Positions 9,219 through 15,192 of a stretch of DNA of 64,000 nucleotides are shown one piece after another (the stretch's first letter is position 1; every line of letters begins with the position of its first letter). The position numbers and the translations under genes are program-made. The notes under the pieces are model-generated. The model was given only the letters and a program-made list of their open reading frames with translations. It made no database searches and was not told the origin of the DNA. Source of the stretch: Haloarcula japonica DSM 6131 (GTDB lineage: Archaea; Halobacteriota; Halobacteria; Halobacteriales; Haloarculaceae); NCBI RefSeq assembly GCF_000336635.1, contig NZ_AOLY01000039.1, positions 1 to 64,000 on the forward strand, read 5' to 3'.

Positions 9219-11165
9219 ATGGACGATATCGTCGACCTGGTGACCCGGTCGCTCGCCGACGACACTGCCGCTGAGTTCACTGAGCGGGTCGACGAACAGG
9301 CGATGCAGCTCCGGAGAGCCATCGAGGCCGGGGAGTTCGACAACGAGGCGTTCTCCGTCGGTCTGGAGATCGAGCTGTACGCTATCAACGCGGAGCCGGA
9401 CCCACCCGAACCAGACGAGGAAACAGACGACGAGGGAGTCACCGAAGAGGACCTCGACGACGACCTGAGCGGATCGGACGGAGCGGCTTGGAGCGGCTCA
9501 CTCGACGCGCCGGCGGAGCCAGAAGGTGGCGGTAGCGCATCGCTGGAGCCAAACGGCGACGGGTCGTCGCTGGAACCAGACGAGGGCGACCCTCTGGAAC
9601 CCGCCGGCGGTGAGTCACTGGACCAGAACGCTGGCGAAGCCGCTGACGAGCCCGAAGATTCATTCGGTCCCGGAGAGGGGCCGTCACTCGACATCGACCC
9701 GGACAGCCCGCTGGCCGAGGACGAACCGGAGACGCCCGAGGAAGAGACCGAGCCGGCCGTCGAGTCGTCGGTCGAGGACGAGCCGGACGACGAGCCCTAC
9801 ATGGCCCCCGAGGACTGGGAGGGGCGGCTGACCCGCCTCCCGGACGTGGTGTTCGAGGGCGAGGCCAACAAGGAACTGGGCCTGCACAACGCCGAGGTCA
9901 ACACCGAGCCGAACAGTTTCGACCAGACTGGAATGGAGGTCCAGACGACGGCGGTGGAGATGCAGACGAAACAGGCCCGCCAGCAGGCGAGCAAGCACAA
10001 CTGCGAACTCGTCCTCGACGCGATGTGGACCATTCCGCCCGAGGAGGGCAGCGAGCAGTATCTCTCGGCACACGAGACGAACGACGGCGTCGTCCTCGCG
10101 GACAACATGCGGCAGGCCCCCAGATACGTGGCGCTGGACAACGAGGCGCTCGACCACGCCGGTGGCAGCATCGACTTCGACGTACCGGGGTACACCGGGT
10201 CGTTCCCGACGATTCTGTTCGAGTCGCTGGCCACCTCGATCCAGCCGCACCTCCAGATTCCGGACGCCGGGGCGTTCCCCGAGTACTACAACGCCGCGAT
10301 CCGGACGCTCGGGCCGCTGCTTGCGCTGTCGGTGAACTCGCCGTTCCTCCCGGCGGATATGTATGGCGATACCGACGGCGAGTGGCTCTGTGCGAACACC
10401 CACCACGAACTCCGCATCGCGGCTTTCGAGCAGTCGGTCAATACCAGTGAGAACCCGAAGGTCCGGGTCCCACGGGACCTCGACGACACGACAGACATTG
10501 TCGGCCGCGTCGTCGACGACGACCTGTTCGCGCCGTTCCTCCGGGAGTTCTTGCACGACGATGACCGGGCGGCGTTCGAAGACGAGTTCTGGGAGTTCGA
10601 CCACAAGCGCGGGACCTACTGGCGCTGGCTCCGCTGTGTCGCCGGCGGAACCCCGGTCGAGGGAGCCAGCACCGAGCGGTCGCTCCGTATCGAGTACCGC
10701 CCGCTCCCGACCCAGCCTCACGCCAAGGACATGATCGGGCTGCAGGCGCTGACGGTCGGCCTCATTCGCGGGCTGGTCGTCGCCGACCACCCCGCCGCGG
10801 AACTGCCGTGGCAGGAGGCCAGGCAGAGTTTCTACAGCGCCGCACAGGACGGCTCCGACGCGGACCTATCATGGGTGACGGCCGAGGGCGAGCGGACGGC
10901 CGATCACGAGGAGATTTACGACGAGGTTTTCCAGTACGCCCGTCTGGGGCTGGCCGAGCAGGGCGTGCCCGAGGCTCGCATCGACGAGTATCTTGGCCCG
11001 ATTGAAGCCCGCTACGAAGCCGGCATGACCCCGAGCGACTGGAAGATCGACCGGGTTCGACAATCCCTCGATTCGGGCGACGACCTCTCGACAGCCATCG
11101 AGTCGATGCAGCGGGATTACATCGCGGCGAGCCGCGAACACCATTCCTTCGCGGAGTGGCTGTAA
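9219..11165 (+). CDS. Glutamate-cysteine ligase (GCS2)-like protein with acidic insert
   Basis: A 648-residue protein. The N-terminal helix region runs into FSVGLEIELYAIN (residues 46-58), the Glu-binding strand of the GCS2/ATP-grasp-like glutamine-synthetase fold, which is then broken by about 140 residues made nearly only of D, E, S, G, P and A. The fold resumes at about residue 195 with LPDVVFEGEANKELGLHNAEVN and TEPNSF, and continues through LRIEYRPLPTQP, both typical of the GCS2 superfamily of carboxylate-amine ligases. It could make a gamma-glutamyl amide, and haloarchaea do make gamma-glutamylcysteine, but through another named enzyme, so the substrate stays open. Monocistronic. Confidence 0.78.
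   Translation: MDDIVDLVTRSLADDTAAEFTERVDEQAMQLRRAIEAGEFDNEAFSVGLEIELYAINAEPDPPEPDEETDDEGVTEEDLDDDLSGSDGAAWSGSLDAPAEPEGGGSASLEPNGDGSSLEPDEGDPLEPAGGESLDQNAGEAADEPEDSFGPGEGPSLDIDPDSPLAEDEPETPEEETEPAVESSVEDEPDDEPYMAPEDWEGRLTRLPDVVFEGEANKELGLHNAEVNTEPNSFDQTGMEVQTTAVEMQTKQARQQASKHNCELVLDAMWTIPPEEGSEQYLSAHETNDGVVLADNMRQAPRYVALDNEALDHAGGSIDFDVPGYTGSFPTILFESLATSIQPHLQIPDAGAFPEYYNAAIRTLGPLLALSVNSPFLPADMYGDTDGEWLCANTHHELRIAAFEQSVNTSENPKVRVPRDLDDTTDIVGRVVDDDLFAPFLREFLHDDDRAAFEDEFWEFDHKRGTYWRWLRCVAGGTPVEGASTERSLRIEYRPLPTQPHAKDMIGLQALTVGLIRGLVVADHPAAELPWQEARQSFYSAAQDGSDADLSWVTAEGERTADHEEIYDEVFQYARLGLAEQGVPEARIDEYLGPIEARYEAGMTPSDWKIDRVRQSLDSGDDLSTAIESMQRDYIAASREHHSFAEWL
9376..9800 (+). repeat. Low-complexity acidic coding insert
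   Basis: Within the GCS-like gene, roughly codons 55-193 encode an Asp/Glu/Ser/Gly/Pro stretch with loosely repeated units of the type S-L-E-P-x-G-G/D and E-P-A-G-G-E-S-L. It interrupts a conserved strand-helix element of the fold and must loop out of the domain. Confidence 0.7.
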
Positions 11166-11763: not shown

Positions 11764-12801
11764 TTACGCGTTTGTCGTCCGCCGAACGCCGGTGCCGGCC
11801 GACACTGCAGTGAGGTCGAACACGTCACCGTCGAGCGGTACGCCGGCGTAGGGGTCTGCTTCCAGCAAGAGCGCCCCGTCGAGGTCGACGTAGTCGACCA
11901 GCGGCGCGAGATGGACCGCCGCGGCGATGCTGGCGTTGGACTCGACCATACATCCAAGCATCAACTCAAGACCATGGGCGTCGGCAGCGTTGAGCAGTCG
12001 GGTTGCAGGCCGGAGGCCGCCGCATTTGACGAGCTTGGCGTTGACGATATCACAGGCGTCAGCGACCCGCGGCACGTTCGACGCGGTGACGCAGGACTCG
12101 TCGGCCGCGACGGGGATGTCGGTCGCGTCGGTCACGCGGCGGAGGCCGTCGATATCGTCGGCCGCGACCGGCTGTTCCAGCATCGTCACGCCAGCGTCGG
12201 TAAGCCAGTCCGCATTCTCAATAGCCTCCTGTGCAGTCCAGGCGGCGTTGGCGTCGACGCGTAGCTCGGCGTCAGGGGCCGCGTCTCGGACCGCATCGAA
12301 TCGCGCCCGGTCGTCCTCAGTCCCGAGTTTGACTTTCAGGTGGCCGAAGCCGTTGTCGACCGCCTCCCTCACTTTCTCGGCCATCCGCTCAGCCGAGTCG
12401 ATGCCGACCGTGTAGGTGGTCGGCGGGACAGCGTCAGGGTCGAGTCCCCACTGACGGTATAGCGGCAGGTCCAACTGCCGGGCGGCGAGGTCGTGGACGG
12501 CGATAGAGAGCGCCATCCGTGCGGCGGGCTGGTCAGGTGCTTGCTCGGCGAGGTCCCGCTCGATGCGCTGCTGGGCATGTGGGTCGCCGATGCGACCGAC
12601 GGTCTCACAGAGCGCGGGCAGCGTTTCAGCCACCGACTGCGCGCTCTCGTCGTAGTACGCCGACGGCGTGACAGCCCCGATACCGGTAGTTCCCTCGTGT
12701 GTGAGTTCCACGATAACCGTCTCGCTGGTCTCACTTGTCTCTCGGGAGATGCCGAACGGATTCGACAGCGGCAGGTCGTAGCGGTCGACGGTCCAGTTCA
12801 T
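11764..12801 (-). CDS. Enolase-superfamily dipeptide/N-acyl-amino-acid epimerase (DgcA-like)
   Basis: The 345-residue protein has the muconate-lactonizing-enzyme subgroup layout: N-terminal capping domain (1-115) then a beta-barrel with the KxK base motif (HLKVKLG, about residues 155-160), metal ligands in LRVDANAAW, MLEQPV and VAADES, and the second base in NAKLVKCGG. Bases on both faces of the barrel fit 1,1-proton transfer, i.e. racemisation, as in L-Ala-D/L-Glu epimerases. Its ATG overlaps the DUF1611 gene by four bases. In marine bacteria the same pair, DgcA and DgcN, degrades D-glutamate through N-acetyl-D-glutamate, and I infer that role here. Confidence 0.85.
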   Translation of the reverse strand: MNWTVDRYDLPLSNPFGISRETSETSETVIVELTHEGTTGIGAVTPSAYYDESAQSVAETLPALCETVGRIGDPHAQQRIERDLAEQAPDQPAARMALSIAVHDLAARQLDLPLYRQWGLDPDAVPPTTYTVGIDSAERMAEKVREAVDNGFGHLKVKLGTEDDRARFDAVRDAAPDAELRVDANAAWTAQEAIENADWLTDAGVTMLEQPVAADDIDGLRRVTDATDIPVAADESCVTASNVPRVADACDIVNAKLVKCGGLRPATRLLNAADAHGLELMLGCMVESNASIAAAVHLAPLVDYVDLDGALLLEADPYAGVPLDGDVFDLTAVSAGTGVRRTTNA

Positions 12802-13808
12802 AGAATGGCGTCCAAGATCTCGTCGGGGACGCCGTGGCGGACCGGGTCAGTCGCTGGTGCGTCCAGAGCGTCGCTGTACTCCGCAACAGCATCCGCGGCC
12901 GCACCGTCGTCGAGGTGGCGCGTGTTCAACATGCCCGCAACGACAGAGGCGTCCGAGATGGGCGCGGCCAGACGCTCGTAGATGTCGACGTACTCGGGGA
13001 GGGGCGGGATATCGAAGGACTCGTAGCCGTGGATGGCCTCGCGGCCGGCCTCGTGGCACATGACGAGCGCATCCGGGACCGACCCGTGGAGGATGCTCGT
13101 CGTCACGCCCGAATAGGCCGGATGGGCGAGCGCACCCTGGCCCTCAACGACGAGGAGGTCCGCCGCCTGCGCTTCTTCGACCAGCCGCTCGACTGCGCCG
13201 GCAGCGTAGTCGGCGATGACGCGATCGATGACGATGCCCCAGCCGGTGATGGCGATACCGGTCTGACCCGTCGGAACAACGGCGGCATCGAGGCCGCGCT
13301 CCCGCGCCGCATCGCGGATCTCAAACGACGCGGTCATCTTCCCCGTCGAGCAGTCAGTGCCGACAGTCGTGACGACCGTCGCGTCCACGTCGCCGGCCGT
13401 TCCCGCTGCCACGGTCAGGTCTTCGGGCGGCTTCCGGAGGTCGTGGAGTTCGGCATCGTGTTCCTCGGCGAGGCGGGCGAACTCCTTGTCGTCAGCCAGG
13501 AAGTCATGCAGTCCCGAGTACACGTCGCAGCCGCGTTCAAGCGCCGTGCGAACGTCCTCGCGCCATGACTCGTCGAACTCGCCGCCGATAGGCGAGATGC
13601 CGATGACGAGCGTGTCCACCTCTGGTGCGTCGGCCATCGACGCGACGATTGGGGCGTCCTGCACGTCCGGCAGCGAATCGTGGACGCGCTGGCCGGCCCG
13701 CTCACGGTCGACAAGTGCTTCCACCGTTCGGTCACCGTACCGCAACAGCCCGACGGCCGTCTTGGCCCGGTCGGGGAAAGCGTCGTGTGTTAAAATGGCA
13801 ACGGCCAT
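12798..13808 (-). CDS. DUF1611 protein (DgcN-like), translationally coupled to the epimerase
   Basis: The 336-residue protein has an N-terminal Rossmann-like domain (1-140, with LVIGISPIGG) and a C-terminal P-loop-like NTPase domain with GTDCSTGKMTAS at about residue 160-170, then VVPTGQTGI and LLVVEGQGAL, the standard DUF1611 pattern. Founding members were of unknown function; DgcN from marine bacteria was reported as an N-acetyltransferase that starts D-glutamate catabolism together with the DgcA epimerase. The stop overlaps the epimerase start by four bases (ATGA), so the two are one translational unit, supporting a shared pathway. A single gene pair without regulator or transporter next to it. 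Confidence 0.88.
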   Translation of the reverse strand: MAVAILTHDAFPDRAKTAVGLLRYGDRTVEALVDRERAGQRVHDSLPDVQDAPIVASMADAPEVDTLVIGISPIGGEFDESWREDVRTALERGCDVYSGLHDFLADDKEFARLAEEHDAELHDLRKPPEDLTVAAGTAGDVDATVVTTVGTDCSTGKMTASFEIRDAARERGLDAAVVPTGQTGIAITGWGIVIDRVIADYAAGAVERLVEEAQAADLLVVEGQGALAHPAYSGVTTSILHGSVPDALVMCHEAGREAIHGYESFDIPPLPEYVDIYERLAAPISDASVVAGMLNTRHLDDGAAADAVAEYSDALDAPATDPVRHGVPDEILDAIL

Positions 13809-13883: not shown

Positions 13884-14777
13884 CTACGGCACGCGCAACC
13901 GGACAGTCCACAGCGACCGAACGGCGTCGTCGAGCGCTGCGTCGGGCTCCCCGGTCGCGTCGACCGGCTTCGTCGCCGTCGCGAGGTCCTCGAACTCGTG
14001 GATAACTGACCCTTCGCCGACGACGTACAGCCGGTCGGGGGACACTTCCTCGATAGCGGCCCGACAGCGGTCGAGGTGGGAGTCGATCTGTTGGTCCCGG
14101 AGCCGCTCGAATCGGCTCTGTGAGAAGCCGCCCTTCGAGTGCTGGCTTTTCAGCTCCGAGTCGAACCCGTGGAAGGCGGTCCGCTCCCGGCCGTCGTACT
14201 CGCCCATGGCGAACAGGTCTGAGCGAACCAGTGCGACGACGTGCTCGCCGGTCGGTTCGAACCACGACCGCTCCAGCTGGACAGTGTCGGCCCACCCGGT
14301 GAACGGGGACGGCGGCGCGGGGACGGACAGACATGCCGACAGGAGGCCGGCGTCATCCGTCACAGCCAGACACGGCGCGGCGCTGGCGACCAGCGACGCA
14401 CGGTCACCGAACGCGTCCCGAACCGGGCTGGGCAGGGAGCGCTCCGCGTCGACGTAGGCGGTAAAGACCCCCTCTGGTTCTGTCTCGACGGATTCCAACC
14501 GGTCGAGAACCTCACTCAGTCGCGCCCGGCTGAGCGTCTCCTCGGCTCGGAACGTCGATTCACCCTCCTCGTTTTGCAGGCGTTCGACTCGGTCCTGAAG
14601 CTCGGCGACGCGGTCCTCCAGCCGATTGACCTCGGCCTCGGCCTGCTGGCGCTCGGTCGCTGCGTCGGCGCGGCGCTCCTTCTCGGCGTCAAGCTGTCGT
14701 TCGAGGTGATGGTTCTCCTCTTCGAGTTCGGCCACCCGCTCTTTCAGCGACGCCCGTCCCAGCAACCGGTCAAGCAT
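13884..14777 (-). CDS. Vms1/VLRF1-type peptidyl-tRNA hydrolase with N-terminal coiled coil
   Basis: From the ATG at 14777 there are 297 residues. Residues 5-75 are a Glu/Arg/Leu-rich coiled coil. The rest is an eRF1-like alpha/beta domain with the segment S-K-G-G-F-S-Q-S-R (about residue 205-213), the GGxSQxR loop that in yeast Vms1 carries the Gln needed to cut peptidyl-tRNA on stalled 60S subunits. Archaeal and bacterial members of this release-factor-like family are thought to free nascent chains during ribosome rescue. The coiled coil may hold a partner. The frame is open further upstream to 15002, but that part overlaps the next gene and is not expected to be translated. Confidence 0.82.
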   Translation of the reverse strand: MLDRLLGRASLKERVAELEEENHHLERQLDAEKERRADAATERQQAEAEVNRLEDRVAELQDRVERLQNEEGESTFRAEETLSRARLSEVLDRLESVETEPEGVFTAYVDAERSLPSPVRDAFGDRASLVASAAPCLAVTDDAGLLSACLSVPAPPSPFTGWADTVQLERSWFEPTGEHVVALVRSDLFAMGEYDGRERTAFHGFDSELKSQHSKGGFSQSRFERLRDQQIDSHLDRCRAAIEEVSPDRLYVVGEGSVIHEFEDLATATKPVDATGEPDAALDDAVRSLWTVRLRVP

Positions 14778-14826
14778 CGACTGAATGGCAGACGGGGACA
14801 GGCTTAAAAGTGACTTCCGACGTCCC

Positions 14827-15192
14827 TCAGACGGCGGTGTCGGGCAGTGTCGGCGTCCCCTCTGAAATAGAGAGCAGTTGTGCGGCGTGGTCCGCCTTCG
14901 CCAGGAATACCTCTTCGAGGCTGGGCGGGTTCTGGACGTTGGCATCTTCGAGCATCGCTTCGGGAACGACGAGTGTGTCCGCCGGGACCTGTTCGTCCCC
15001 ATGGACGGCGAAGTGCTGGGAGCCGAGTTTCATTACCAGCGGATAGTCTGTGCGTTCGACCCCCTCGCCGGAGGCGTACAACTGTTCGTTCACTCGCTCG
15101 TGCTGCTCGCGACACATCGCGGCCGCCGCGTCGTCTCTCGGTTCGACGTAGAGGCGGCCGAGGTAGTATCCGCGCGAAAACTGTTCGAACAT
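14827..15192 (-). CDS. Haloarchaeal DUF5802-like protein
   Basis: A 121-residue soluble protein beginning MFEQFSRGYYLGRLYVEPRDD, an N-terminus I associate from memory with the haloarchaeal DUF5802 family. No catalytic motif is visible; the body is a mixed alpha/beta domain (YPLVMKLGSQHFAVHGD) with an acidic surface. I chose the ATG at 15192 over the upstream one at 15225, because the family signature starts there. It precedes the Vms1-type gene on the same strand by about 50 bp, so a shared transcript is likely, although no functional link is known. Confidence 0.75.
   Translation of the reverse strand: MFEQFSRGYYLGRLYVEPRDDAAAAMCREQHERVNEQLYASGEGVERTDYPLVMKLGSQHFAVHGDEQVPADTLVVPEAMLEDANVQNPPSLEEVFLAKADHAAQLLSISEGTPTLPDTAV

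Follow-up and report, generated by a model that had tools for sequence, protein, structure and literature searches.

A conserved DUF1611-racemase gene pair of Haloarcula japonica as a putative haloarchaeal form of the DgcN-DgcA route

The stretch of Haloarcula japonica DNA analysed here, 64,000 nucleotides long and referred to as the window, contains a gene for a DUF1611 protein (DUF1611-A) followed on the same strand by a gene for an enolase-superfamily racemase (racemase A); together they are termed pair A (Table 1). The ATG of racemase A overlaps the stop codon of DUF1611-A by four nucleotides (ATGA), as a preliminary description of this DNA had reported. An overlap of this kind, either ATGA or GTGA, recurs at 30 of 31 distinct haloarchaeal loci from the genus Haloarcula and from other families, the sole exception having a gap of 137 nt between both genes. 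Since it is kept across families, with ATG or GTG as the start, the overlap is not a product of chance. When compared with a close relative (L004), most substitutions are at third codon positions, namely, 93 of 105 in DUF1611-A and 89 of 119 in racemase A, a bias that appears as in genes under purifying selection.

Table 1. Position and basis of the features discussed in the text.
Feature	Position	Strand	Basis
DUF1611-A, 336 aa, DgcN-like D-glutamate N-acetyltransferase candidate	12798..13808	-	Pfam, NCBIfam, fold, residues
Racemase A, enolase superfamily, 345 aa, DgcA-like N-acetyl-D-glutamate racemase candidate	11764..12801	-	Pfam, NCBIfam, fold, residues
4-nt ATGA stop/start overlap coupling DUF1611-A and racemase A	12798..12801	-	Sequence
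acVLRF1-family gene, 75 nt upstream of pair A	13884..15002	-	PF18859, 110 bits; synteny
Pair B, divergent DUF1611/epimerase pair with 4-nt overlap	G000:C37 about 346,718-348,868 (L033:5719-7868)	-	Same genome

Neither a linked transporter, regulator or deacylase nor a linked peptide transporter or peptidase was found at the locus. This agrees with the earlier remark that the pair stands without transporter or regulator, both of which accompany a second such pair of the same genome, pair B. The acVLRF1-family gene upstream also adjoins the pair in five other haloarchaeal loci (L021, L025, L026, L037 and L040); it is a syntenic neighbour in some relatives, and a functional tie to pair A is putative. 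Elsewhere in the window, at 9219-11165 (+), lies a 648-aa open reading frame that contains a long acidic insert, matches neither Pfam nor NCBIfam models and is reminiscent of proteins of the glutamate-cysteine ligase type.

The initial assignment of the two proteins to DUF1611 and to the enolase superfamily is borne out by Pfam domains above their gathering cut-offs. First, DUF1611-A matches PF07755 with 260 bits and PF17396 (DUF1611_N) with 113 bits, for cut-offs of 25 and 22.6. Second, racemase A matches MR_MLE_C (PF13378) with 148 bits and MR_MLE_N with 37 bits. The top NCBIfam families are DgcN for DUF1611-A (NF041892, 261 bits, equivalog cut-off 480) and DgcA for racemase A (NF042940, 250 bits, equivalog cut-off 400), that is, the two enzymes classified as EC 2.3.1.312 and 5.1.1.25 (PMC11747546). 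Neither protein reaches its cut-off, whereas Rhodobacterales controls exceed both, with 560-566 bits for DgcN and 501-507 bits for DgcA. The reading of the pair as DgcN and DgcA thus holds at the level of best-scoring families and marker residues, but not at that of curated equivalogs, and because both proteins miss these cut-offs D-glutamate is treated here as a putative substrate.

DUF1611-A is built of an N-terminal Rossmann-like domain and a P-loop domain (GTDCSTGKM). Its predicted fold, of modest confidence (mean pLDDT 68.5), matches 2obn, 7xrj and 2g0t, of which 7xrj is a DUF1611 structure deposited under the name 'N-acetyltransferase DgcN-25328'. By predicted-fold comparison, the P-loop domain resembles ATP/GTP-binding proteins, namely, dethiobiotin synthetase, MinD and SRP GTPases. 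The abstract of the paper on the DgcN-DgcA pathway reportedly speaks of a GNAT fold; for DUF1611-A such a fold is unsupported, the nearest folds to this modest-confidence model beyond DUF1611 itself being SIMIBI-type P-loop proteins.

Residues were compared among 31 haloarchaeal and 79 Rhodobacterales DUF1611 sequences, and among 30 haloarchaeal and 75 Rhodobacterales racemases, together with the characterised proteins of Pseudoalteromonas CF6-2. The preliminary description had named active-site residues as a means of checking its reading; the catalytic lysines and metal ligands of racemase A, and all DgcN marker residues tested, proved to be present. Those common to CF6-2 and Rhodobacterales and kept in DUF1611-A are K16, D123, R125, GTDC..GKM, TGQ.G, EGQG and H229, as well as a C-terminal set formed by H252, G261, N295, D321 and R324. 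No member of this latter set is missing from any of the 31 haloarchaeal sequences, and M158 is shared by 30; each of these six residues is found in 78-79 of the 79 Rhodobacterales sequences and in CF6-2 DgcN.

In racemase A, the two bases foreseen earlier as a KxK motif plus a later lysine are K156-V-K158 and K256. K158 and K256 align with K162 and K268 of Bacillus subtilis YkfB, between which the alpha-carbon is located (PMC5808125). The metal ligands are D183, E209 and D234, so that racemase A carries the two-base lysines and the three metal ligands of the MLE subgroup. These five residues are invariant in the 30 haloarchaeal and 75 Rhodobacterales racemases, as is R20; all of them are also kept in CF6-2 DgcA, and K156 is kept across the three sets. 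In pair B, position 20 is occupied by Leu. In the alignment, R20 is one column away from B. subtilis R24, a residue that we take to bind the Glu side chain, and this near-alignment may point to binding of the same side chain by racemase A, as a lead rather than a test.

Other functions of the superfamily were considered for racemase A. An o-succinylbenzoate synthase (MenC) identity was rejected, with 110 bits for TIGR01928 against a cut-off of 201 and lower values for other MenC models, and a muconate cycloisomerase was ruled out on scores. The NCBIfams for L-Ala-D/L-Glu epimerases are also not reached, with 190 bits for NF011708 (cut-off 343) and 153 bits for NF041118 (cut-off 500). The predicted fold of racemase A nevertheless matches dipeptide epimerases (3ijq, 1jpd and 4gfi), and the L-Ala-D/L-Glu epimerases of Escherichia coli (YcjG, 1jpd), B. 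subtilis (YkfB, 1jpm) and B. theta (3iji/3ijq) share with it the fold (TM about 0.77-0.88), the two-base lysines, the metal ligands and a DxD motif. Racemase A differs from them in its dedicated DUF1611 partner with overlapping genes and in the absence of murein-peptide genes nearby; to our knowledge, haloarchaea have no murein.

It could therefore be argued that racemase A is a dipeptide epimerase of the L-Ala-D/L-Glu type, processing murein-derived or other dipeptides that DUF1611-A would make or modify, for example by ATP-dependent ligation at its P-loop, instead of acetylating free D-glutamate. Its top structure and sequence matches are indeed dipeptide epimerases (3iji/3ijq, 3jva and 1jpd), the likeness of the P-loop domain to dethiobiotin synthetase, MinD and SRP GTPases would suit a ligase, and the counterparts of its D306xD308 motif in the alignment are B. 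subtilis D321/D323, which presumably bind the dipeptide ammonium group. However, this motif was set aside as a means of telling dipeptide from N-acetyl substrates because DgcA, the E. coli L-Ala-D/L-Glu epimerase (AEE) and pair B all carry it, and since characterised DgcA shows both the motif and the same closeness to AEE, neither favours dipeptides. The deposition of 7xrj as an N-acetyltransferase and the lack of a linked peptide transporter or peptidase at pair A also speak against this explanation, which we consider quite unlikely.

The trees place racemase A as sister to a clade of characterised DgcA and E. coli AEE (92/75), inside a 98/94 group that also takes in the B. theta epimerase. 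Clustering with Ala-Glu epimerases, counted beforehand as a sign against the DgcA reading, is non-discriminating and cannot decide the substrate of racemase A, since characterised DgcA itself groups with AEE. DUF1611-A, DgcN and Anabaena 2OBN stand together opposite the DUF1611 proteins of B-type and Thermotoga (98/96). DUF1611-A forms a haloarchaeal clade of its own (100/99) outside DgcN, and a clade of only DUF1611-A and DgcN was neither recovered nor rejected (AU p 0.35). Given that the marker residues are kept, yet scores fall far below equivalog cut-offs and the clade is separate, pair A is a haloarchaeal sister group of DgcN/DgcA.

The nearest characterised system is the operon of Pseudoalteromonas CF6-2, which according to its plasmid record comprises an NhaC transporter gene, dgcR, dgcN and dgcA. 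Pair A shares with it the two families, their order, strand and gene overlap, the catalytic residues and the DgcN marker residues. In contrast, pair A scores below the NCBIfam equivalog cut-offs, belongs to a separate clade and has no dgcR, NhaC gene or any linked transporter, and the N-terminal segment of DUF1611-A is closer to Anabaena 2OBN than to CF6-2 DgcN. The extension of DgcN-DgcA to haloarchaea is not new, as the title of the pathway paper already names halophilic archaea (Yu et al., 2023; reference 27 in PMC12363236), so the D-glutamate route of pair A is essentially known in kind and host group. In our judgement, the reported haloarchaeal DgcN must be this DUF1611-A gene, since nearly all haloarchaea carry that DUF1611, usually as the sole copy. 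As a separate observation, a mobilizable plasmid of Sinorhizobium meliloti, pEmeLPU88b, carries dgcN (L133:4887-5894) with no dgcA annotated beside it, in the vicinity of Glu/Leu/Phe/Val dehydrogenase and aminotransferase genes.

We regard pair A as probably a haloarchaeal form of the DgcN-DgcA route, with D-glutamate salvage as its best reading. The substrate, acyl donor, deacylase and physiological role, as we infer them, would be the following. DUF1611-A would transfer an acetyl group from acetyl-CoA to the alpha-amino group of D-glutamate, giving a substrate whose enolate racemase A could stabilise on Mg2+; K158 and K256 would then swap the alpha-proton between faces, yielding N-acetyl-L-glutamate, from which an unlinked M20-type deacylase would free L-glutamate. 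Such a route would allow an organism without glutamate racemase (MurI) to use D-glutamate from bacterial wall debris, and no glutamate racemase (TIGR00067) was found in the Haloarcula japonica genome. Candidates for the N-acetyl-L-glutamate deacylase are M20 proteins encoded at sites unlinked to pair A, one of which, at G000:C7:103626, belongs to the ArgE/DapE family. The presence of a [LysW]-lysine hydrolase among the arginine genes of this genome makes it probable that arginine synthesis in this organism does not pass through N-acetyl-glutamate.

Some of the evidence goes against D-glutamate catabolism, namely, the scores under equivalog cut-offs, the separate DUF1611-A clade, the absence of any transporter, regulator or deacylase gene next to the pair, and the ATP/GTP type of the P-loop domain. 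To these may be added the distribution of the genes. DUF1611 is present in 267 of 292 near-complete genomes of the class, a wider spread than is usual for an accessory catabolic function. Within a set of 41 genomes, the two genes occur side by side in 35 and are both missing from four, so that the adjacent arrangement is found in 35 of the 37 genomes with either gene. The two remaining genomes are G007, where a racemase gene without DUF1611 lies at the edge of a contig, and G034, a small-genome haloarchaeon whose A-type DUF1611 (L036:4771-5847) is followed by a threonyl-tRNA-synthetase-like gene with no racemase beside it; no A-type racemase was found in the whole G034 genome, and a DUF1611 without an adjoining racemase also counts against the D-glutamate reading.

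In a phylum-wide sample, strong DUF1611 matches outside the class were confined to two genomes of one family, one with an adjoining A-like racemase (L152) and the other with no racemase seen in a stretch that ends at the contig end (L153). Weaker matches elsewhere in the phylum, scoring about 20-30 bits, were put down to cross-matching between P-loops, and a scan of viral contigs found no relative. The distribution is consistent with presence from an early stage of the haloarchaeal lineage.

The near-universal, conserved and transporter-free occurrence of pair A in the class, and the large divergence from characterised proteins (32-40% identity), would also be consistent with a DgcN/DgcA-like pair that acts on another N-acyl amino acid, or that removes internal D-Glu, D-Asp or D-Gln as a housekeeping function instead of serving as a nutrient route. 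Nonetheless, pair A retains R20 and the DgcN markers, and DUF1611 is missing from about 9% of near-complete genomes of the class and is therefore dispensable, which makes this alternative unlikely in our view. If D-glutamate salvage by pair A is correct, it would be close to a core haloarchaeal trait and not a curiosity, and consequently haloarchaea would reuse nitrogen from bacterial walls in brines while having neither such a wall nor a glutamate racemase.

Pair B, likewise formed by overlapping genes of both families, occurs in about half of the near-complete genomes of the genus and provides an internal comparison for substrate choice by DUF1611 enzymes. It belongs to other DUF1611 and epimerase clades than pair A, and its neighbours encode IclR and HTH_10 regulators, an NhaC-family transporter, an alanine-dehydrogenase-like protein, a nucleoside hydrolase and an M24 peptidase. 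These linked transporter, regulator, dehydrogenase and peptidase genes, together with the NhaC gene next door in the characterised dgcRNA operon, might suggest that pair B is the true D-glutamate catabolic unit, leaving pair A with another job. Against this, M158, H252, G261, N295, D321 and R324 all differ in its DUF1611 and R20 is absent from its epimerase, the P-loop has GKR where pair A has GKM, and the scores are lower than those of pair A, with 189 bits for DgcN and 167 bits for DgcA. In addition, both proteins group with Thermotoga-type ones, the epimerase being closest to Thermotoga-type epimerases, and the substrates of the Thermotoga epimerase are L-Ala-D/L-Phe, Tyr and His (PMC5808125). 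We consider it very improbable that pair B takes the place of pair A in D-glutamate catabolism.

Relatives of the B-type, also with overlapping genes, occur on haloarchaeal plasmids, where a D-aminoacylase gene lies beside the pair in L134 and L136 and near it in L124, and ABC transporter genes are near in L124 and L134. This context suggests that the substrates are D-amino acids in peptide-bound or N-acyl form. A third DUF1611 group, in yet another clade, is found on plasmids of Ruegeria conchae (L125:3833-6150) and Vibrio cyclitrophicus (L127:3866-6150). As in pair A, the DUF1611 gene overlaps a racemase gene by 4 nt, but this gene encodes a PLP-dependent racemase of the alanine/ornithine type (PF01168), unrelated to the enolase-type one. 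It is tempting to speculate that DUF1611 proteins are a general amine-protecting class, each with its racemase, comprising a core haloarchaeal D-glutamate system (pair A), an accessory one (pair B), linked to D-aminoacylase or transporters, that would handle other D-amino acids in N-acyl or peptide-bound form, and a swap to a PLP racemase in some marine bacteria, a generalisation that we offer as tentative and rather doubtful.

Finally, a few irregular cases were recorded. A plasmid of Halostella pelagica (L130) carries an extra A-like DUF1611 without an adjacent racemase, which adjoins a nucleoside-hydrolase-like gene, such a gene being found near pair B as well; the same plasmid has a B-type epimerase at a distance of about 4 kb. 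The racemase gene of G002 is split across two frames (C1:2144698-2145722), and an in-frame TAG was reported by the search for that of G037 (C1:1192861-1193874); these two genes are possible pseudogenes or sequencing errors.
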